A stretch of DNA of 33,101 bases from an uncultured cyanobacterium (GTDB taxonomy: Bacteria > Cyanobacteriota > Cyanobacteriia > Cyanobacteriales > Microcystaceae). This document shows positions 2,393 to 20,274 of this stretch, piece by piece. The DNA is taken from positions 1-33,101 of the forward strand of contig CAISPN010000051.1 in NCBI GenBank assembly GCA_903887375.1. Reading direction: 5' to 3'. How positions within the stretch are numbered: position 1 is the stretch's first letter; every line of letters starts with the position of its first letter. Made by a program: the position numbers and the translations under genes. The notes under the pieces were generated by a model. It saw only the letters and a program-made list of their open reading frames with translations, was not told the DNA's origin and made no database searches.

Positions 2393-3628
2393 ATGTATAT
2401 ACCTTCTTCAGTTGTTCTTGGCAATGTACGATTCATAGATCCATGGAATAGCATTGATCAAGTTGCTGATGTTTTGATTATTGAGGGTAAAATAAAATCG
2501 ATCAATACTCATCAGCTCCCTGGAGAGATTGATTATCTTAATTGTGAAAATCTTTTACTAGCCCCGGCTTTAGTAGATCTCTATAGTATATTAAGCCAGC
2601 CCGGACATGAAGAAAGAGAAACCCTCTCTAGTTTACTTTGTGCTGCTAGAGCCGGCGGAATAGGGCAGCTCAATCTTTACTCTAAAATACTGAATGAGCC
2701 TGCTTCTTTTGTACATGTTGATGAGCTTTTAAAAGCAGAAGGCTCCTTGATAGATGTTAACTTTTGGGCCTGTGCCAATATTAATCAACAACTGAACAAC
2801 TTGCTTGAGCTCAGTCAAAATCGGATTGTTGGTTTTATTTATATCAACCCTATTGAAGACTATGCGCTGCTGCGGAGCATCCTGGAATATTTAGCTCCGA
2901 TAGGTTTACCGCTTGCTTTGACCGCGCAAGATAGCGCTCTAGCTGGCAAAGGTGTGATGAGAGAAGGGGTTCAAGCTCTACGGCTTGGCTTGAGCGGTGT
3001 TCCTAGCTATTGTGAAACAGCATCTCTAGCTGGTATCTTGCAAATGGTAGAGGAAATTGGTACCCCCGTTCACTTTATGAGAATTTCTACCGCCAAATCA
3101 ATTGAGCTCATTGCTCAAGCCAAAAGAAAAGGACTGCCAATTACAGCTAGTACCACCTGGTTGCACTTACTCTTTACCAGTGAAGATATTGCTAGTTACA
3201 ATCCGAATTTACGACTTGAGCCTCCCTTGGGTAATCCTAGTGATCGCCAAGCTTTGGTTGAGGCAATCAAAACCGGAATAGTTGATGCTATAGCCATAGA
3301 CCATACCCCCTACACCTATGAAGAAAAAACAGTGGCCTTTGCTGAAGCGCCAACAGGGGCAATTGGTCTAGAGATCGCACTGGCTTTGCTCTATCAACAA
3401 TTAGTCGTCACAGAAAAAATTTCACCTCTAGAGCTATGGGCGGCTCTAACTCTCAAGCCAATTCACTCCCTAGGCAGATCCCCAAACAATCATTGGATTC
3501 TCTTTGATCCCAATAAGCAATGGAAAGTAGAGCCTTCTAGCCTTAATTCGCTCTCACACAATACACATTATTTGGGAGAGCAAGTTTCTGGTAAAGTCAT
3601 AGGCAGTTTTTATGATTTTAGGCCTTAG
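2393..3628 (+). CDS. pyrC: Dihydroorotase-like protein, probably catalytically inactive
   Basis: A 411-residue protein of the amidohydrolase superfamily with the overall order of a type I dihydroorotase: the QPGHEERE segment (69-76), ISTA (231-234), EPPLG (276-280), AIDHTPY (301-307) and a GAIGLE segment (322-327). Active enzymes have an H-x-H after strand 1; here the residues are Y64 and I66. The later ligand histidines are replaced by T177 (in LTAQD) and R230 (in HFMRIST). Only the aspartate D303 remains. It is therefore very likely a pseudo-dihydroorotase, comparable to the inactive PyrC' of Pseudomonas, which holds aspartate transcarbamoylase together. That partner role is inference. The start is the ATG abutting the previous stop, and the 3' end overlaps the convergent gene by 11 bases. 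Confidence 0.8.
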   Translation: MYIPSSVVLGNVRFIDPWNSIDQVADVLIIEGKIKSINTHQLPGEIDYLNCENLLLAPALVDLYSILSQPGHEERETLSSLLCAARAGGIGQLNLYSKILNEPASFVHVDELLKAEGSLIDVNFWACANINQQLNNLLELSQNRIVGFIYINPIEDYALLRSILEYLAPIGLPLALTAQDSALAGKGVMREGVQALRLGLSGVPSYCETASLAGILQMVEEIGTPVHFMRISTAKSIELIAQAKRKGLPITASTTWLHLLFTSEDIASYNPNLRLEPPLGNPSDRQALVEAIKTGIVDAIAIDHTPYTYEEKTVAFAEAPTGAIGLEIALALLYQQLVVTEKISPLELWAALTLKPIHSLGRSPNNHWILFDPNKQWKVEPSSLNSLSHNTHYLGEQVSGKVIGSFYDFRP

Positions 3629-4340
3629 TTCTCTGGAGGATGACCATATCCTTTCCAACTACTGGACTTCTTGCTAGAATCGTCCCATCGCCATCAGCCA
3701 ACTCAATTTTGGCAAAGGCCATATCCTTGGCGTGGCGCCAGATGTCATCAGCCAATCGGTCTTGTTGAACATCACTGAGCTCATACCAAAGTGGCTCTAA
3801 CTTAACTTGAAGAAAACTACGTTCAAAATCCACCTTGACCGAAGCAATAAGCTCATCGTGTAACTGACTGTTGTAAGAGCTAATAGACTGCTTAATACCA
3901 GCTAAAAAAGTTTGCTCTGGAGTCAAGGCAACTTCTTGTTGAGCAATAGTTTCTTCTTCCTCTTGGGCGATTACTGGTGGCTCTGGCTCTTTTACTTGAT
4001 TTGGTTCTACTTGCTCAACTGGCTCTTGCGGGGATAACTCAATAGGAGCTTGGGCAACTTGAGTCAAATTAGCTCGGTTCAAATTGTAGAAATATATTCC
4101 ACCACCTAAAACAACCAGCAGCAAAATAGTAGCTAATAGAGGGGAGAGCTTTTTAACTAGAGAAGGTTTAGCTACAGAGCCTTGGAGAGATTCAGTAGCA
4201 TCTGCTAGGCGTCTAAGCAAAGTTGGGGAAGGATAATTTTGTTTTGGATTGGCCTTAACTTGGACCAAGATCTCTTCTAATTTCTCTATGGTTTCTTGTA
4301 ATTGCAGAGAGATTGCTTCTTTATCGGCTGGTTTTGGCAT
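3618..4340 (-). CDS. Single-pass membrane protein with Pro/Glu-rich linker, unknown function
   Basis: A 240-residue protein that I do not recognise by name. Residues 1-62 are soluble, with a Leu/Glu-rich helix (10-30). One hydrophobic segment spans about 66-86. A proline, glutamate and glutamine-rich linker follows (about 96-136). A compact C-terminal domain covers about 140-240 and includes LEPLWYELSDVQQDRLADDIW and a run ending ARSPVVGKDMVILQR. The layout suggests a cytoplasmic N-terminus and a domain held away from the membrane by a stiff linker, in the periplasm if it is in the inner membrane. It is divergent from a lipoprotein gene 61 bases away, so an envelope role is possible but unproven. 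The start is the ATG at 4340. Confidence 0.7.
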   Translation of the reverse strand: MPKPADKEAISLQLQETIEKLEEILVQVKANPKQNYPSPTLLRRLADATESLQGSVAKPSLVKKLSPLLATILLLVVLGGGIYFYNLNRANLTQVAQAPIELSPQEPVEQVEPNQVKEPEPPVIAQEEEETIAQQEVALTPEQTFLAGIKQSISSYNSQLHDELIASVKVDFERSFLQVKLEPLWYELSDVQQDRLADDIWRHAKDMAFAKIELADGDGTILARSPVVGKDMVILQRTKA

Positions 4341-4401
4341 ATGTTGGCATTTGAGCGTCTATCGTTCATTATATATCTGGGACTAGTTCTCTAAAACTTC
4401 C

Positions 4402-4821
4402 ATGAAAAGATTAATTGTTCTAATAGTATTAATATTCGTCATTGCTGGCTGCGGTAGTCCACCTAGCCAATTTGCCCCAGATAGAGAAATCATTAGCCAA
4501 GCTCTGCTACTTACTCTCCAACAAGCTCAAAGTCAAATTGCTCAGCAATTAAATACAGAACAACCCAAATTGCGTATTGAGAATATTAAGGTCAAAGAAA
4601 CCATTCCTTCTTATCTTGAAAATCTGGCTGTATATCATCTGGTAGGTAGTTACGATCTCAGATTACAACTACCGCATAGGAAGGTGAAGCAAAAAAACAA
4701 TCCCTTTGATCTTTTTTTGCAACGACAGGCAGAAGGTAAATCTTGGCGGTTACTTAAAAAAAACGCACAGGAAAATCAATGGTCTAGTTATTTGATCACC
4801 TTAACTGAAAAATCTCAATAA
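4402..4821 (+). CDS. Lipoprotein of unknown function
   Basis: A 139-residue protein with a classic lipoprotein signal: MKR, a hydrophobic stretch (4-14), then IAGC with the acylated cysteine at position 17. The mature part of about 120 residues is Gln-rich, helical at first, with LRIEN and YHLVGSYDLRLQLP segments that look like beta strands near the middle. I see no known domain. It is divergent from the membrane protein to the left and followed by 106 bases before the GH57-like gene. Confidence 0.7.
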   Translation: MKRLIVLIVLIFVIAGCGSPPSQFAPDREIISQALLLTLQQAQSQIAQQLNTEQPKLRIENIKVKETIPSYLENLAVYHLVGSYDLRLQLPHRKVKQKNNPFDLFLQRQAEGKSWRLLKKNAQENQWSSYLITLTEKSQ

Positions 4822-12113: not shown

Positions 12114-12353
12114 ATGACTATTGTTGATGTTTTAAGAATTGTTTGGTCTCTCTCGGCGGTTTTGTTGATAGTTCTTGTGCTGCTACATAGCCCCAAAGGG
12201 GATGGAATTGGTGGTATTGGAGGACAAGCTCAGCTTTTTACCAGTAGCAAAAGTGCTGAAAAAACTCTTAACCAAATCACTTGGTCCTTGAGTATTATTT
12301 TTGTTGCCTTAACTGTAGTACTAGATCTCTCTAAAAAACTCTTTGGTGTCTAG
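12114..12353 (+). CDS. secG: Preprotein translocase subunit SecG
   Basis: A 79-residue SecG, the accessory subunit of the SecYEG channel in cytoplasmic and thylakoid membranes. Two membrane helices are visible (about 4-24 and 55-74). Between them lies the family hallmark, the short glycine-rich loop HSPKGDGIGGIGGQAQLF, followed by SSKSAEKTLNQ. The length matches cyanobacterial SecG. It follows gpmI by 37 bases, and its last codons overlap the start of the protease gene. Confidence 0.92.
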   Translation: MTIVDVLRIVWSLSAVLLIVLVLLHSPKGDGIGGIGGQAQLFTSSKSAEKTLNQITWSLSIIFVALTVVLDLSKKLFGV

Positions 12354-13083
12354 ATTTTGGGCTTTTTTTTGCTGCTTTTTCGCGGCAGCCCAAAATGTCG
12401 CATTTATTCATCCTTTACCTGCTAGTTTGGTAAATTTGACCAGCAGCTCTAGCGATGATTATTTTTCTGCGATTACTCCAATTGAATTTGGCTATTTAAT
12501 TTGGTCGTCTTTTCCCATCAAGGTATACATTGAGCCTATTGCTCCTAATGTAGTAGAAGGAACAGGTGAGGATAGGCGCTGGCGAACTTGGGAAAGATTA
12601 GCTAGAAAGGCTTTTAACAATTGGTCTGTATATTTGCCCTTGACTATTGTAGATGGGATAGAACTATCTGATATTGAGATTCTAAGAGAGTATCCCCCAA
12701 CAAGCTCAACAAGAGCAAAAGCTGGGCAAACTAGATATTGCCTTTACCAGTCTAAAGATCGGATTTTGAGGCACAAAATGATTATCAAAATTCCACCCAA
12801 TCTAGCCGAATATAGCTTGCAATCAACTATTGAGCATGAACTAGGACATGCATTGGGGATCTGGGGGCATAGCGATAAGCCCAGCGATAGAATGTACGAT
12901 TCCCAAAGCCCTCAGGCTGCTTCTATTTCCCCAAGGGATATCAATACTCTCAAAAAAATATACCAACAGCCAACCAAGTTAGGTTGGCCTGTTTCTTATT
13001 CTTCCCAAGACTCCACTAAAATTAATTCACTGACGGGATCTTGGAGAGAAAAACCAAAGTCCAATAGTTCCTGTTTCCAATAA
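12343..13083 (+). CDS. Exported matrixin-type zinc metalloprotease
   Basis: A 246-residue secreted or periplasmic peptidase. A hydrophobic N-terminus with small residues (FWAFFCCFFAAAQ) looks like a short signal peptide cut near 16. The zinc site is HELGHALGIWGHS, with H165, E166 and H169, the glycine G172 and a third histidine H176. The Met-turn candidate is M184 in DRMYD. In classical matrixins the third histidine comes one residue earlier (HExxHxxGxxH), so this is the HExxHxxGxxxH variant. The start is either TTG at 12343 or GTG at 12346, overlapping secG by 8-11 bases, which indicates translational coupling. The last 88 bases are antisense to the DUF4327 gene. The substrate is unknown. 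Confidence 0.8.
   Translation: MVSRFWAFFCCFFAAAQNVAFIHPLPASLVNLTSSSSDDYFSAITPIEFGYLIWSSFPIKVYIEPIAPNVVEGTGEDRRWRTWERLARKAFNNWSVYLPLTIVDGIELSDIEILREYPPTSSTRAKAGQTRYCLYQSKDRILRHKMIIKIPPNLAEYSLQSTIEHELGHALGIWGHSDKPSDRMYDSQSPQAASISPRDINTLKKIYQQPTKLGWPVSYSSQDSTKINSLTGSWREKPKSNSSCFQ
12952..12993 (-). terminator. Likely terminator of argB-DUF4327, inside the protease gene
   Basis: On the minus strand, just after the DUF4327 stop, AACA-G-GCCAACC (12993-12982) pairs with GGTTGGC-TGTT (12975-12965). This forms an 11-bp stem with one bulged G and a 6-base loop. Two Gs and then a U-rich run (TATATTTTTTT) follow. The hairpin sits within the coding sequence of the oppositely oriented protease, so it must satisfy both functions. 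Confidence 0.5.
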
Positions 13084-14410: not shown

Positions 14411-17032
14411 ATGATACAACGGTTTAATATTTCCCGAAGCGCTTTACAGCATCCACGACAGGTAGTGGCCTTCTGGCTAGCCGTGATAGCTGCAGGAATA
14501 TTGGCCTATAGCTCTCTTAAATATGCACTTTTTCCCGATATCAGCTACCCAGTGGTAGTAGTAAGTGCGCAAAAAGCTTCATTGAACAGTGCACTAAATA
14601 CCGAAGCGAATTTAACCAATCCTTTAGAAAAAAGTTTAAAGACTTTGCCAAACATTAAGGAAATTTACTCAACTACCTACCCACAACAATCCACAATCAA
14701 TATTGTCTTTACTCCAGGTACTGTCTTGGAAAATGCTGCCGAGCAGACTAAAAATATTTTGGCTAATTTTCGGCAGTTTAAAACACAAGTTTTCGCCCTA
14801 AACCTCAATGAATCGCCAGTAATTAGCTATGCCCTTAGCAGTGATCAGATAGATATTTCCCTAATCAGGCAGATCGCTCAAGCAGAACTGATCCCCAATC
14901 TGGAAAAGCTTCAAGGTGTTCTCAAAGTCAATCTTCTGGGAGATTCTAGTATCAAAAATAGCCATAAAAAAGAAGATGGTTCCTATTTGAGTGAAAAATT
15001 CCCAACGCTGGTTCACTTTCAAGGAAAAAATGCTCTAGCTTTAGAGATAGTTAAAAAAAGTGATGCTAACACTTTAGATGTCGTGGCTTTAGTCCAGCAA
15101 AAAATTCAAAAGCTACAACAAAGGCACCAAAATATCCAGTTTGATCTAGCCGAGACTCAGGCAAAATATATCAAAGCTGCAACCGGAGCAACGGTAGATG
15201 AGTTATTTCTAGCAGTGATTTTGGCAGTCGGTGTGATTTTTCTGTTTCTGAGAACCTTCAGTGCTACGATAATTTCTGCTTTGGCAATTCCCACCTCTCT
15301 TTTGGGTACTTTTATTGTGATGGCTATTTTTCACTTTAATCTAGAGACCTTGACCCTGTTGGCTTTAACTATGGTGATTGGGATTGTGGTAGATGATGCC
15401 ATCGTAGATGTAGAGAATATTTCTCGCCTTATTGAGCAAGGGCAAGATACCAAATCCGCCGTGATCAATGGTACTAATGAAATTGGTCTCTCTGTCATAG
15501 CCTCTACTTTGACTATTGTGGCGGTCTTTTTACCTGTCGGACTGATGGTAGGTTCAGTTGGCAAATTTTTTAAACCATTTGGTTTGACCATCTCCGCCGC
15601 AGTCCTCTTTTCTCTATTGGTAGCAAGAACATTAACACCAGTTCTTTGTCTGCGCTGGCTTAAACCTAGCCTAGTCAAAAAAAGAGAATTTGCTCTGGTC
15701 AAATCATATGCAAGATTATTGGATTGGGCATTAGCTCATCGTAAAACAGTAATTGCAATAGCTCTAGTTAGCTTTTTAGTGGGAATTGTTTTTATTCCTT
15801 TTATTCCCAAGGGGTTTGTACCTATACTAGATCGCGGCGAATTCAATGTGATGTATAGCACTGCTCTGCCGAGAATTAATATAATTTCTTCTGGTGATAG
15901 TCCTTCTGGCTCTGTTTTTAATTGGATGGATGATTTGGCCAAATCCCCAGAAGAATTTCTGCTAAAAAGAACAATGAGCGCTGGTAAGCGACTAGAGAAG
16001 GTGATCCTTAATAGTCCCGATATAGAATCAGCCTTTACTACTGCAGGAATCAACGGTCAGCCCAATCAGGGAAAAATCCATGTCAAAATGAAAGCCAAGC
16101 GAACCAGAAACACAGTTGAAATGCAGGATTATATAAGGCAGCATTTACCACAGCTTAAAGGAGTGAGCTTCAGTGTGGAAGATATTCCCTTTGTCCAGAC
16201 TGATGCCAATAAACAACTACAATTAGCTATTCAAGGTCAGGATTTAGGCATATTATTAGAAGCTGCTCAGAATTTGAAAACTCAAGTAGCTAAAATCTCA
16301 GGATTTAAAGATGTAGCTCTTTCCAACTCCACAATAGATGCCGAGAGCCCATTTAAGATTGAGCATCTAGGTGGTGAGAGGATGATCTATCTCAGTGCTA
16401 ATCTCTCGCGTAATTTGGCTCTGGAAGATGCCACCTTGAAAGTAGAAAAACTCTCTAGTGTGATTCTTCCTCAGGAAATAAAATTGAGACGCTGGGGCAA
16501 TTCGGCTGATAGCTCCGATGTTTTGGTAAGCTTTGGCTTTACCATATTGCTTTCTACGATACTTCTATTGTTGGTGCTATTTTTGCTCTTTGGCCGTCTT
16601 CTTGAACCAGTTGTGATTGGCTTGAGCTTACCGCTGGCAATTGTTGGGGCTATGTTTGGCTTATGGATTACAAGGAGTGATTTTGGTATTATTTCTCTCC
16701 TTGGTCTAATTTTTCTTTTGGGATTACTGAGCAAGAATTCTATACTACTTTTAGACTATATCAAGAGGCTTAGGGCGACGGGAACAGAGAGGAAATTGGC
16801 AATTATTGAAAGTGGCAAAATAAGATTAAGGCCTATCATCATGACTACTGCTGCAACAATTTTGGGCATGCTCCCTATTACATTAGGTATCGGAGCTGGA
16901 GCAGAATTACGCCAACCAATGGCTGTGGCTATTGTCGGCGGGTTGCTAACTTCTACTTTATTGAGCCTGATTGTTGTGCCAGTGCTCTATACCTTGCTGG
17001 ATGATTTTTGCTACCAAAATAAATTTAGATAA
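14411..17032 (+). CDS. RND-family transporter, short form lacking docking subdomains
   Basis: An 873-residue inner-membrane transporter of the AcrB/HAE-1 type, about 150-180 residues shorter than usual. The proton relay is intact: D328 and D329 in MVIGIVVDDAIVDVEN, and K775 in LLGLLSKNSILLLDY. All membrane blocks of both halves appear present (first helix about 17-37; later groups 262-415, 444-465 and 703-865). The loss lies in the two periplasmic loops. After QGVLKVNLLG (168-177) the chain goes straight to a PN2-like strand, and after GFKDVALSN (631-639) straight to a PC2-like strand. Both are the places where AcrB inserts its TolC-docking DN and DC subdomains. No membrane fusion protein gene is adjacent. 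The substrate is unknown. A Ycf46 gene follows after 4 bases. Confidence 0.88.
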   Translation: MIQRFNISRSALQHPRQVVAFWLAVIAAGILAYSSLKYALFPDISYPVVVVSAQKASLNSALNTEANLTNPLEKSLKTLPNIKEIYSTTYPQQSTINIVFTPGTVLENAAEQTKNILANFRQFKTQVFALNLNESPVISYALSSDQIDISLIRQIAQAELIPNLEKLQGVLKVNLLGDSSIKNSHKKEDGSYLSEKFPTLVHFQGKNALALEIVKKSDANTLDVVALVQQKIQKLQQRHQNIQFDLAETQAKYIKAATGATVDELFLAVILAVGVIFLFLRTFSATIISALAIPTSLLGTFIVMAIFHFNLETLTLLALTMVIGIVVDDAIVDVENISRLIEQGQDTKSAVINGTNEIGLSVIASTLTIVAVFLPVGLMVGSVGKFFKPFGLTISAAVLFSLLVARTLTPVLCLRWLKPSLVKKREFALVKSYARLLDWALAHRKTVIAIALVSFLVGIVFIPFIPKGFVPILDRGEFNVMYSTALPRINIISSGDSPSGSVFNWMDDLAKSPEEFLLKRTMSAGKRLEKVILNSPDIESAFTTAGINGQPNQGKIHVKMKAKRTRNTVEMQDYIRQHLPQLKGVSFSVEDIPFVQTDANKQLQLAIQGQDLGILLEAAQNLKTQVAKISGFKDVALSNSTIDAESPFKIEHLGGERMIYLSANLSRNLALEDATLKVEKLSSVILPQEIKLRRWGNSADSSDVLVSFGFTILLSTILLLLVLFLLFGRLLEPVVIGLSLPLAIVGAMFGLWITRSDFGIISLLGLIFLLGLLSKNSILLLDYIKRLRATGTERKLAIIESGKIRLRPIIMTTAATILGMLPITLGIGAGAELRQPMAVAIVGGLLTSTLLSLIVVPVLYTLLDDFCYQNKFR

Positions 17033-17036
17033 AAAT

Positions 17037-18530
17037 ATGAACTTTTCTGAGGAATTTGAATTATTAATTAGAGCTTGTTATCCTCTACTCTATATCGCTA
17101 CAGCCGAAGAAGAAAGATTAGAATCATCTATTGCCAAATCTGCACAAAAATTGGGCAATAGGACAGTGTATATTTGGGATTTTGTCGAAGGATATCAACA
17201 CAGCTCTGAAGGATTAGGCAGGCGCAATCCACTTCAAGCTCTAGAATTTATCGAAAAATTACCTGATAAATTAGGTGGAATTTTCATTCTGAGAGATTTT
17301 CAACGTTTTTTAGAAGATATTTCTATTTCTCGTAAACTGCGCAATTTAGCCAGATTATTAAAAGCACAACCCAAAAATATTGTCATAATCTCAGCCACAA
17401 TCAATATACCCAACGATCTATCTGAGGTTTTGACAGTTGTCGACTTTGCTCTACCTACTGCTAGTGAAATTCGCTCTGAAATAGAACAAATATTGACAAA
17501 TATCCAACAAACCTGTGAATCATCCTTGTTAGATGATGTGGTGCGAGCATCTCAAGGTCTTTCTCTTGAGCGCATCAAAAGAGTACTCACGCGCTGCATT
17601 GCTCTCAATGGAAAACTAGAATCAAACGATGTAGAAATGATTCTAGAAGAGAAAAGACAATCTATCAGACAAACTCAGATTTTGGACTTTTATCCAGCTA
17701 CAGAGCAAATTTCAGATATAGGCGGCCTTGATCAGCTAAAAGATTGGCTGCTACGCAGAGGCTCAGCTTTTAGTGAAAGAGCTAGGCTCTATGGTTTACC
17801 CAATCCACGCGGCCTTCTTTTAGTAGGAGTACAGGGAACCGGAAAATCTCTAAGTGCCAAGGCTATTGCCCATCATTGGCATCTTCCACTTTTGAGGCTA
17901 GATGTGGGCCGACTTTTTAGTTCTCTTGTGGGAGAATCAGAATCTCGCACTCGCCAGATGACTAATCTAGCAGAGGCTTTAGCTCCTTGTGTACTTTGGA
18001 TTGATGAAATCGATAAGGCTTTTGCTGGCTCAGAGGGCAAGGGCGATAGCGGAACCACCAGTAGAGTTTTTAGCACATTTATTAACTGGCTAGCGGAAAA
18101 ACGCTCACCTGTTTTTGTTGTAGCAACCGCTAACAATGTACAATTTTTACCAGCAGAAATGCTGCGCAAGGGCCGTTTTGATGAAATTTTCTTTGTAGGT
18201 TTACCAAATAGAGCTGAAAGGGAAGCCATTTTTAAAGTTCATCTTTCTAGGTTGAGATCTCAGAGTTTGCGCAACTATGATCTTAAAAGATTGGCCTATG
18301 AAACACCCGATTTTTCTGGCGCAGAAATAGAACAAATTTTAATTGAAGCAATGCATATTGCCTTTAGTCAAAATCGTGAATTCACAACAGATGATATTTT
18401 AGAAGCTGCTAGTCAAATGATCCCTCTAGCTAGAACAGCTCAAGAGCAAATTGAATATCTCCAAAGCTGGGCCTATTCAGGAAAAGCAAGACTTGCCTCT
18501 AGAGATAATAGGCTCTCAGAAAGAGATTAA
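17037..18530 (+). CDS. ycf46: AAA ATPase, Ycf46-like
   Basis: A 497-residue protein. The ATG at 17037, 4 bases after the RND stop, is preferred to an upstream in-frame alternative that would overlap the RND gene. Residues 1-200 form the family-specific N-terminal domain. One AAA module follows: Walker A GVQGTGKS (264-271), Walker B VLWIDEID (319-326), a sensor-1 asparagine in VVATANN and an arginine-containing RKGRFDEIFFVGLP stretch. A C-terminal helical lid ends the protein. Ycf46 proteins occur in cyanobacteria and some red-lineage plastids; work on a Synechocystis member links them to CO2 uptake, but the mechanism is unclear. Tight spacing suggests co-transcription with the RND gene. Confidence 0.88.
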   Translation: MNFSEEFELLIRACYPLLYIATAEEERLESSIAKSAQKLGNRTVYIWDFVEGYQHSSEGLGRRNPLQALEFIEKLPDKLGGIFILRDFQRFLEDISISRKLRNLARLLKAQPKNIVIISATINIPNDLSEVLTVVDFALPTASEIRSEIEQILTNIQQTCESSLLDDVVRASQGLSLERIKRVLTRCIALNGKLESNDVEMILEEKRQSIRQTQILDFYPATEQISDIGGLDQLKDWLLRRGSAFSERARLYGLPNPRGLLLVGVQGTGKSLSAKAIAHHWHLPLLRLDVGRLFSSLVGESESRTRQMTNLAEALAPCVLWIDEIDKAFAGSEGKGDSGTTSRVFSTFINWLAEKRSPVFVVATANNVQFLPAEMLRKGRFDEIFFVGLPNRAEREAIFKVHLSRLRSQSLRNYDLKRLAYETPDFSGAEIEQILIEAMHIAFSQNREFTTDDILEAASQMIPLARTAQEQIEYLQSWAYSGKARLASRDNRLSERD

Positions 18531-18660: not shown

Positions 18661-20274
18661 ATGAATATTTTAAATCTTCCCAATTTTCTAAGTTGGGAAA
18701 TTTCTGTCCTATTAGCTCAAACTAATCCAGTGGAGATTATCAATCCTGCAATCAAGCAGGTTACCGTCTATCTTCCCAGTATTTTAGGCGCTGTTGCGGT
18801 TTTGATTGTTGGCTGGTTGGCGGCTGTAATTGTTGCTTCAATAGTTGGTGGTCTGCTCAGAAAAACTGATTTTGATAATCGCCTTGCTACTTGGTTAGGT
18901 GGTGGAAGAGGAATAGATAGATCCATTCCTATAGAAAAATGGATCTCTACTGCCATTTTTTGGCTGGTCTTTCTCTTTGCCATTGACGCTTTTCTCAATG
19001 CGCTGCAATTGCCTGCAGTTTCAGCTCCTTTAAACTCTTTCTTGCAACAGGTATTTAGCTACCTACCACGGTTTGTCAGCGCAGCGGTCACCTTGGGTAT
19101 TGGTTGGCTTTTGGCAACCTTGGCCAAGAAAGTTGTAGTAAGAGGAGTTGGCAGTTTTAATTTAGAAAATCGCATCGCCCAAACAACTGGCGCTGCTCCT
19201 GAGGATACCCCTCTGGCGCTCAATGAAGCTTTTGGCAATGCATTGTACTGGTTTATTCTGCTATTTTTCTTGCCTTTGGTATTAGATATCTTGCAACTGC
19301 AAGGTCCCCTTCAACCAGTACAAAATCTCCTCAATCAAATTCTGTTAGCTGTACCCAAGATTCTGACAGCGGCCCTAATTGGTGTAATAGGCTGGTTCGT
19401 TGCTCGAATCGTCAGGATTATAGTTACCAATTTTCTCTCTGCGGTGGGGACTGACCAAATTGGCTCCAAAGTTGGACTCAAACAGGGGAGAAATACTCTT
19501 GCCCTTTCCCAGATATTGGGCACTTTAGTTTATGTGCTGATTTTGATTCCTACTGCCATTGCTGCTCTCAATGCGCTGCAGATAGAGGCAATCTCAGCTC
19601 CTGCTGTAGGAATGCTTGGTCAGATTTTAAATTCTCTGCCTAAGATATTTACCGCAGCTCTAATTTTGACGGTCTCCTATGCTATAGGGCGTTTTGTCTG
19701 TGACTTGGTGACAAATATCCTCACTAGTATTGGCTTTGATGATATTTTCACTTGGCTAGGCCTTCCTAAAGAGCCACCAAAAACTTCTGAATATGTAGGG
19801 GCTGGTGGTGGTTCTTCTAAAGTTATCCAACAAACTCCCTCTCAGATTGCAGGCATTATAGTTTTGGTTGGCATCATGCTCACTGGCGCAGTTGCCGCAG
19901 TAGAAAAGCTGGAATTTGCCGCTCTTACTAGAATTGTCAATGCTGTTTTGGAAGTTTCTGTAAATGTTTTGGGTGGATTGATTGTTCTGGCTATAGGACT
20001 TTATCTAGCCAATCTTGCTTATAACGTAATCAGCCGCTCTGGTGCTAGTCAGGTCAAAATATTGGCTCAGACTGCGCGCATTGCAATCATTGCCTTTTCA
20101 GCAGCTATGGCTCTAGATCGTATGGGTGTAGCTTCCAATATAGTGAACCTGGCCTTTGGCTTACTTTTAGGTGGCATTGCTGTGGCTATAGCACTAGCTT
20201 TTGGTTTGGGTGGTCGAAGCGTAGCTGATGAAGTGCTGCGCGAATGGCTAGCTTCTTGGAAGCAAAGAAAATAG
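18661..20274 (+). CDS. Mechanosensitive-channel family protein with TM-helix repeats
   Basis: A 537-residue, very hydrophobic protein built from repeated modules. Each has a short amphipathic helix, then a proline and a membrane helix with a GW or GY at its centre. Copies are near 27-66 (LPSILGAVAVLIVGWLA), 125-160 (LPRFVSAAVTLGIGWLL), 221-257 (VPKILTAALIGVIGWFV) and 317-352 (LPKIFTAALILTVSYAI), with a divergent fifth at 425-457. The C-terminus (about 498-530, AFGLLLGGIAVAIALAFGLGG then RSVADEV) resembles the pore helix of MscS, but the beta domain that follows in MscS is missing. It is probably an inner-membrane osmotic-stress or ion-conducting protein; channel activity is unproven. The gene ends at a strong terminator. 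Confidence 0.82.
   Translation: MNILNLPNFLSWEISVLLAQTNPVEIINPAIKQVTVYLPSILGAVAVLIVGWLAAVIVASIVGGLLRKTDFDNRLATWLGGGRGIDRSIPIEKWISTAIFWLVFLFAIDAFLNALQLPAVSAPLNSFLQQVFSYLPRFVSAAVTLGIGWLLATLAKKVVVRGVGSFNLENRIAQTTGAAPEDTPLALNEAFGNALYWFILLFFLPLVLDILQLQGPLQPVQNLLNQILLAVPKILTAALIGVIGWFVARIVRIIVTNFLSAVGTDQIGSKVGLKQGRNTLALSQILGTLVYVLILIPTAIAALNALQIEAISAPAVGMLGQILNSLPKIFTAALILTVSYAIGRFVCDLVTNILTSIGFDDIFTWLGLPKEPPKTSEYVGAGGGSSKVIQQTPSQIAGIIVLVGIMLTGAVAAVEKLEFAALTRIVNAVLEVSVNVLGGLIVLAIGLYLANLAYNVISRSGASQVKILAQTARIAIIAFSAAMALDRMGVASNIVNLAFGLLLGGIAVAIALAFGLGGRSVADEVLREWLASWKQRK

Follow-up and report, generated by a model that had tools for sequence, protein, structure and literature searches.

An AcrB-type RND transporter lacking both docking subdomains as a candidate hopanoid carrier in cyanobacteria

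RND lipid transporters without the AcrB funnel include MmpL3, the HAE-2 lipid exporter. In the hopanoid pathway, the closest described system is HpnN, an HAE-3 protein of Rhodopseudomonas and Burkholderia, which according to the accessible text of PMC8277102 is a dimer with helical PD3/PD4 inserts in its periplasmic domains. In the alphaproteobacteria, hpnN is reported from all genomes of predicted extended-hopanoid producers (accessible text of PMC12583986). The entry site for substrates of AcrB lies between PC1 and PC2, and proton-driven cycling moves them upwards from there, a description drawn partly from the accessible text of PMC8277102. For cyanobacteria, co-occurrence module 65 brings together HpnA, HpnB, Shc, HpnH and a phosphorylase, and no transporter is named among its groups in the available part of the source (PMC5862535); in Nostoc punctiforme, the outer membrane of akinetes is where hopanoids are concentrated (PMC3883690, available part). 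Among the papers listed in our literature search, outside which subscription titles mostly fell, none dealt with the protein described here, with hopanoid transporters of cyanobacteria, with HAE-1 pumps that lack docking domains or with how cyanobacteria place hopanoids in their membranes.

We analysed a stretch of 33,101 nucleotides from an uncultured cyanobacterium of the Microcystaceae (GCA_903887375.1, contig CAISPN010000051.1), referred to here as the window, which contains a real, open reading frame for an RND protein:

14411..17032, plus strand, docking-less RND transporter gene (HAE-1/AcrB-type), 873 aa, candidate cyanobacterial hopanoid transporter

The protein matches Pfam ACR_tran with 521.9 bits (cut-off 28) in four pieces in the genome search, covering profile positions 2-180, 270-565, 571-709 and 798-1020 of 1021, with about 90 profile positions absent from each half. 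It scores below the curated cut-off of 1250 for NCBIfam RND_permease_2 and RND_permease_1 (508.1 and 340.3 bits, respectively), and TIGR03480 (HpnN) is absent from its 17 NCBIfam matches at E<=0.001. Its best PDB match by sequence is MdtB, and unlike MmpL3 it matches the MMPL family only weakly (38.5 bits, residues 266-413). An AlphaFold2 model built on an alignment with 48 other proteins (mean pLDDT 89.3, pTM 0.88) contains the porter strands and helices, together with twelve helices, by our own count, where the transmembrane segments lie. The model superposes on AcrB, AcrD, AdeB and other pumps over ~820 residues with an rmsd of ~3 Å and Z ~55; HpnN is not among the best 50 rows of either structure search, which is no evidence either way. 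The initial annotation of the window had described the membrane part and the proton-relay residues as intact, and both descriptions hold. The relay residues, which we take to be equivalent to D407, D408, K940, R971 and T978 of AcrB, are as follows:

15392..15397, plus strand, proton-relay aspartates D328 and D329, invariant in 26/26 aligned family rows
16733..16735, plus strand, proton-relay lysine K775, invariant in 26/26 aligned family rows
16823..16846, plus strand, R805 to T812, both invariant in 26/26 aligned family rows (window included throughout)

By descent the protein is an AcrB/HAE-1 relative that lacks the docking feature of HAE-1. The two large gaps in the ACR_tran match correspond to the positions of DN and DC in AcrB:

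14939..15007, plus strand, missing-DN site, residues 177-199, short coil between two PN2 strands (profile gap 180-270)
16322..16357, plus strand, missing-DC site, residues 638-649, short coil in porter module PC2 (profile gap 709-798)

At both sites the model has only plain short loops, that at the missing-DN site being a coil with pLDDT <50 at residues 182-195. We compared loop lengths in the same alignment with 48 other proteins, comprising 46 RND proteins from other genomes and two docking-less family members. The DN site (residues 170-208) spans 39 residues in the 873-aa protein and 105-116 in the 46 non-family proteins, whereas the corresponding lengths at the DC site (residues 598-650) are 53 and 138-161; the two other family members have 36 and 58 residues at the DN site and 53 at the DC site. 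Profile gaps, loop lengths and model thus concur in the loss of both TolC-docking subdomains that had been proposed from the DNA alone. The accompanying estimate of 80-90 missing residues per loop is accurate for the C-terminal half (85-90 in 45 of the 46 comparisons, 108 in the other) and too high for the N-terminal half, where direct alignment gives a loss nearer 66-77 residues. Structure prediction and superposition on AcrB, the check suggested at that stage, leave the porter fold in place without docking hairpins.

Homologs of the docking-less gene are represented in 49 of 194 genomes of the phylum, including that of the window. Carriers are the genomes whose match reaches E<=4e-107; beyond them, the strongest matches (2e-75) are to full-length pumps. 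Identity to the window's protein is 45-57% in the other 48 copies, and the match is a single one spanning almost the full length in 36 of the 49 carriers and falls into two pieces in 13. Twenty-six family members (the window's and 25 orthologues, the latter 48-56% identical to it) were aligned and measure 868-989 aa, all 26 with short loops at both docking sites, and no internal stops occur in the family rows listed. The suggested search for homologues therefore yields orthologues that share both losses, and a recent deletion is not supported. Among the 80 loci listed for named genomes, which are predominantly those of full-length pumps, an identity of 49-50% to the window's protein is reached only in Okeania (L078) and Moorena (L081); loops were measured in 48 of these 80 loci. 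The Okeania and Moorena members measure 978 and 1070 aa. Most of their extra length comes from inserts near residues 414-432 and 484-514 and not from the DC site, and the DN-site loop of the Moorena protein is somewhat longer.

Phylogenetic analysis used the alignment columns in which half or more of the short rows have a residue, a choice that excludes the docking inserts; the trees are quick ones, assessed by SH-aLRT and without bootstrap. In a tree rooted with three heavy-metal (HME) RND pumps, built without the HAE3 and HPNN rows and without the long-branched FULL_L088 and FULL_L106 (L164 and L165 have no ORF of 700 aa), the 18 short rows form one clade with a support of 100. Support is 91 for the grouping of this clade with six full-length pumps from the phylum, and 100 for its grouping with sixteen. 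The short proteins have 24-56 residues at the DN site and 48-56 at the DC site, whereas the 47 other rows of this last tree, the HME root included, have 84-121 (84 in the truncated row L175) and 137-146 residues and keep the docking segments, one truncated row only in part. Because the short rows form one clade and all other rows keep these segments, the loss is best read as an old, single derived event. In a tree rooted with HpnN, whose branch has a length of 4.9 changes per column, the branching of the short rows stays open at the base (clade support 73); this tree neither supports nor excludes a docking loss shared with HpnN by descent.

To examine gene neighbourhoods, up to 19 kb was fetched around 40 orthologues and the neighbours were clustered together with those of the window, giving 41 loci. 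At least one hopanoid (hpn) gene lies within the fetched region at 23 of the 41 loci, and at 19 an hpn gene is adjacent to, or within 1.5 kb of, the docking-less RND gene. The neighbours comprise an HpnG-like phosphorylase (16 loci), HpnA (15), HpnH (12), HpnB (5) and Shc (5), and the set consisting of an HpnG-like gene on the opposite strand, followed by the RND gene, HpnA and HpnH in this order, is complete at 10 loci. In the Moorena locus, relatives of HpnA and HpnH directly follow the docking-less gene. One example of each neighbour scored above its NCBIfam cut-off in the case of HpnA (481.6 against 367.65 bits), HpnH (553.8 against 225.05), HpnB (575.7 against 379.25) and Shc (913.9 against 431.1), whereas an HpnG-like example (L041:7049-7738) reached 77 bits, below the HpnG cut-off of 187.1. 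This phosphorylase, the commonest neighbour, may remain unnamed in annotation as it falls so far below the cut-off.

In a larger draw of 388 genomes of the class, Shc lies at most 12.4 kb from the docking-less gene in at least 22 of 120 carriers, and 100 bases away in one; these 22 pairs were chosen by eye among the matches listed, and five are also within the 41 loci. No hpn gene was found in the fetched region at 18 of the 41 loci, some of them cut by contig ends. The window is among these 18; in its genome HpnH is on contig C47 and Shc on C66, so the docking-less gene is unlinked to hpn genes, and its hopanoid link comes only through its relatives and the presence of Shc and HpnH elsewhere in the genome. 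Two phylum genomes that do not belong to the class, G007 (C87:40656-43497) and G029 (C113:5-2579), have HpnH directly beside Shc and no short RND gene; G007 has a full-length RND gene (1115-aa frame) ~21 kb from this pair on the same contig.

The distribution of the family follows that of squalene-hopene cyclase in one direction. Shc is over the cut-off in 55 of the 194 phylum genomes (HpnH in 53) and in all 49 carriers of the docking-less gene, leaving six genomes with Shc and without the transporter (G007, G029, G085, G089, G159 and G179). Within the class, 89 of these genomes divide into 49 with both genes, none with the transporter only, 4 with Shc only and 36 with neither. The 388-genome class draw, which partly contains the same genomes as the phylum draw, gives 120 with both, none with the transporter only, 60 with Shc only and 208 with neither; weak partial Shc matches in G042, G406 and G426, none of them a carrier, were counted as absence. 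Shc is over the cut-off in 119 of the 120 carriers, and the remaining one, G319, has a partial match at E 4e-67. Fisher values for the association are tiny in both draws and ignore shared descent, by which the co-occurrence is partly inherited. In two genera of mixed composition each genome has either both genes or none, namely g10 (2 both, 2 neither) and g14 (7 both, 1 neither), and one of the g10 genomes with neither keeps an Shc remnant with stops.

A third of the Shc-bearing class genomes (60 of 180) have no docking-less match at E<=1e-85, so that the transporter does not belong universally to hopanoid biology. These 60 belong to families f22 (29), f20 (9) and f21 (8) and to twelve others with one or two each. 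In genera g115 and g137, genomes with both genes occur beside genomes with Shc only (G257, G267 and G460; 62-84% complete), in which the pump may have been lost alone or just missed. We saw no docking-less substitute in the six Shc-bearing phylum genomes without the gene. In G085, G089, G159 and G179 the RND frames listed exceed 1,040 aa, save one 216-aa fragment. G029 has a shorter frame of 844 aa, cut by a contig end, that keeps the DC segment, and a pair of 942 and 795, split between frames, in which the DN segment is present and the DC segment is not resolved. HpnH over the cut-off is missing from two carriers with Shc: G051, a genome in a single contig, and G097, in 280 contigs. By this absence G051 would make only C30 hopanoids, yet it keeps the transporter, and its gene content suggests that C30 hopanoids may be among the substrates and that the side chain may not be essential for recognition.

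The docking-less protein resembles HpnN in its length of ~870 aa and in its genomic tie to hopanoid synthesis. In contrast to HpnN, it does not match the HpnN profile and belongs to a separate lineage from the very long HpnN branch, and where HpnN has the helical PD3 and PD4, its model has AcrB-type porter modules with coil at both insert sites. HpnN itself was detected in none of the 194 phylum genomes (TIGR03480, E<=1e-20, at most 4 candidates scored per genome listed), whereas the same model places HpnN over the cut-off in three of six proteobacterial genomes. The docking-less RND protein probably does the same job as HpnN. With the AcrB/HAE-1 permeases it shares its fold, its proton relay and a place in the same tree; it differs from them in lacking both docking subdomains and a linked adaptor or outer-membrane factor (OMF), and in being tied to hopanoid genes. 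Those genes are the set grouped in module 65, whose transporter-free list is as given in the accessible part of that source.

Other neighbours were also considered. A home-made adaptor profile finds one ORF in the 41 family loci (in L075, several kb away, E 6e-8) against matches in 56 of 78 full-length RND loci, and an OMF profile finds none in 41 against 31 of 78, a comparison of neighbours that does not reach partners encoded in trans; the earlier remark that no adaptor or outer-membrane gene is adjacent is in keeping with these counts. The same annotation had asked whether linkage to the ycf46-like AAA gene at 17034-18530 recurs. None of the 40 other loci, a number of them truncated by contig ends, contributed a relative of this gene to the clusters, and we rejected the linkage as a functional clue as the adjacency is seen in the window alone.

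At 7 of 43 loci (the 41 together with L078 and L081), a gene just upstream of the RND gene and on the same strand encodes a small protein (~115 aa) that looks secreted and in which four cysteines are invariant:

L040:2946-3299, same strand as RND, four-cysteine protein
L042:7828-8169, same strand as RND, four-cysteine protein
L051:7043-7390, same strand as RND, four-cysteine protein
L054:10707-11054, same strand as RND, four-cysteine protein
L055:11539-11937, same strand as RND, four-cysteine protein
L073:6521-6865, same strand as RND, four-cysteine protein
L078:5066-5425, same strand as RND, four-cysteine protein

No Pfam family scored over its cut-off in the two members scanned. Of 65 genomes from the order, 24 have the protein, with two matches in the window's genome (C105 and C32); these 24 include G116, which has neither Shc nor the pump, and we rejected the protein as a pump partner because it is not specific. 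Relatives of a 139-aa lipoprotein-like ORF of the window (4402-4821) lie beside the short RND gene in L046, L065, L071 and L077, where they are accompanied by another ORF that, compared by eye, resembles the window ORF at 3618-4340 in its C-terminus; in the window this pair (3618-4821) is ~10 kb from the docking-less gene. The window also encodes a 537-aa protein (18661-20274) with five stretches matching the conserved transmembrane helix of mechanosensitive channels (PF05552), and a Matrixin-type (Peptidase_M10) ORF at 12343-13083 with a TTG start listed.

AcrB-type pumps are able to carry other lipids, which counts against a hopanoid reading, as do the 60 of 180 Shc-bearing class genomes without a copy and the unlinked copy of the window. 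Nevertheless, as relatives are found only with Shc and often among hopanoid genes, the docking-less RND protein is a strong candidate for the missing hopanoid carrier in cyanobacteria. We propose, with a probability of roughly 0.7, that it serves the hopanoid pathway as a proton-driven lipid transporter, descended from AcrB/HAE-1 pumps but lacking their funnel, that releases hopanoids into the periplasm with neither an adaptor nor a TolC-like channel. The proposal is based on the predicted fold, the absent funnel, the intact relay, the single clade, the lack of adaptor linkage, the linkage to hpn genes, occurrence only with Shc in the genomes sampled and the lack of a detected HpnN; hopanoids as substrate, outward transport and an acceptor are what we infer from these. 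A full-length AcrB/HAE-1-type pump would have lost both docking (funnel) subdomains; hopanoids from the cytoplasmic membrane would enter the resulting protein between PC1 and PC2, move through its porter modules and exit to the periplasm at its truncated top, with no help from an AcrA-like adaptor or a TolC-like channel, and then pass via an acceptor towards the outer membrane. The first reading of the DNA had offered a pump that releases substrate into the periplasm or moves lipids. The hopanoid association makes the lipid option specific and leaves the generic periplasmic-release pump as the weaker one.

Linkage and co-occurrence indicate a pathway and not a substrate, and a protein of this pathway could move the squalene precursor or a nucleoside or sugar intermediate of the side chain, or could sense lipids in the manner of sterol-sensing RND-fold proteins. 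A side-chain intermediate would fit the commonest close neighbours, which are the side-chain genes HpnG-like, HpnA and HpnH, but is not needed in G051 and G097, where the gene accompanies Shc without HpnH over the cut-off, and the intact proton relay argues for transport and not for sensing alone; taken together we regard these options as unlikely. A general exporter of lipids, fatty acids or drugs into the periplasm, not specific for hopanoids, is in line with the AcrB-type fold and with the full-length Slr2131 of Synechocystis (1061 aa), which has a role in antibiotic and free-fatty-acid efflux in the available part of PMC6329066. From such an exporter neither the one-way dependence on Shc, seen in 120 of 120 class carriers, nor the hpn linkage is expected, and we consider it decidedly improbable.

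RND adaptors encoded in trans are known, and the porter surface might dock an adaptor and a TolC encoded elsewhere, as in a modified tripartite pump; the absence of both funnel subdomains in every family row measured and the scarcity of adaptor and OMF genes among the neighbours speak against this arrangement, to which we give very little credence. A decaying or truncated pseudogene would account for a protein shorter than normal RND pumps, but the frame is open, both losses are present in every family row measured and the relay is invariant. Family-wide conservation refutes this reading, whose probability is close to nil, in agreement with the early argument for function rather than decay.

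We lean slightly towards the view that dedicated hopanoid transport arose a second time and independently. In an ancestor of present-day cyanobacteria, an AcrB-type pump would have lost both funnel subdomains within one lineage, severed its connection to TolC and become the proton-driven carrier that brings hopanoids to the outer membrane, in parallel to HpnN of proteobacteria. Losing nothing but the funnel would in that case offer a natural way to turn a drug pump into a lipid transporter. A natural AcrB without its funnel would also allow the need for this structure to be tested with respect to the trimer, drug exit and adaptor docking. In the rock record, hopanoids (above all 2-methylhopanoids) are interpreted as traces left by ancient cyanobacteria, and a specific candidate gene would make the placement of these lipids, and their role in the strength of the outer membrane or akinete, directly testable.
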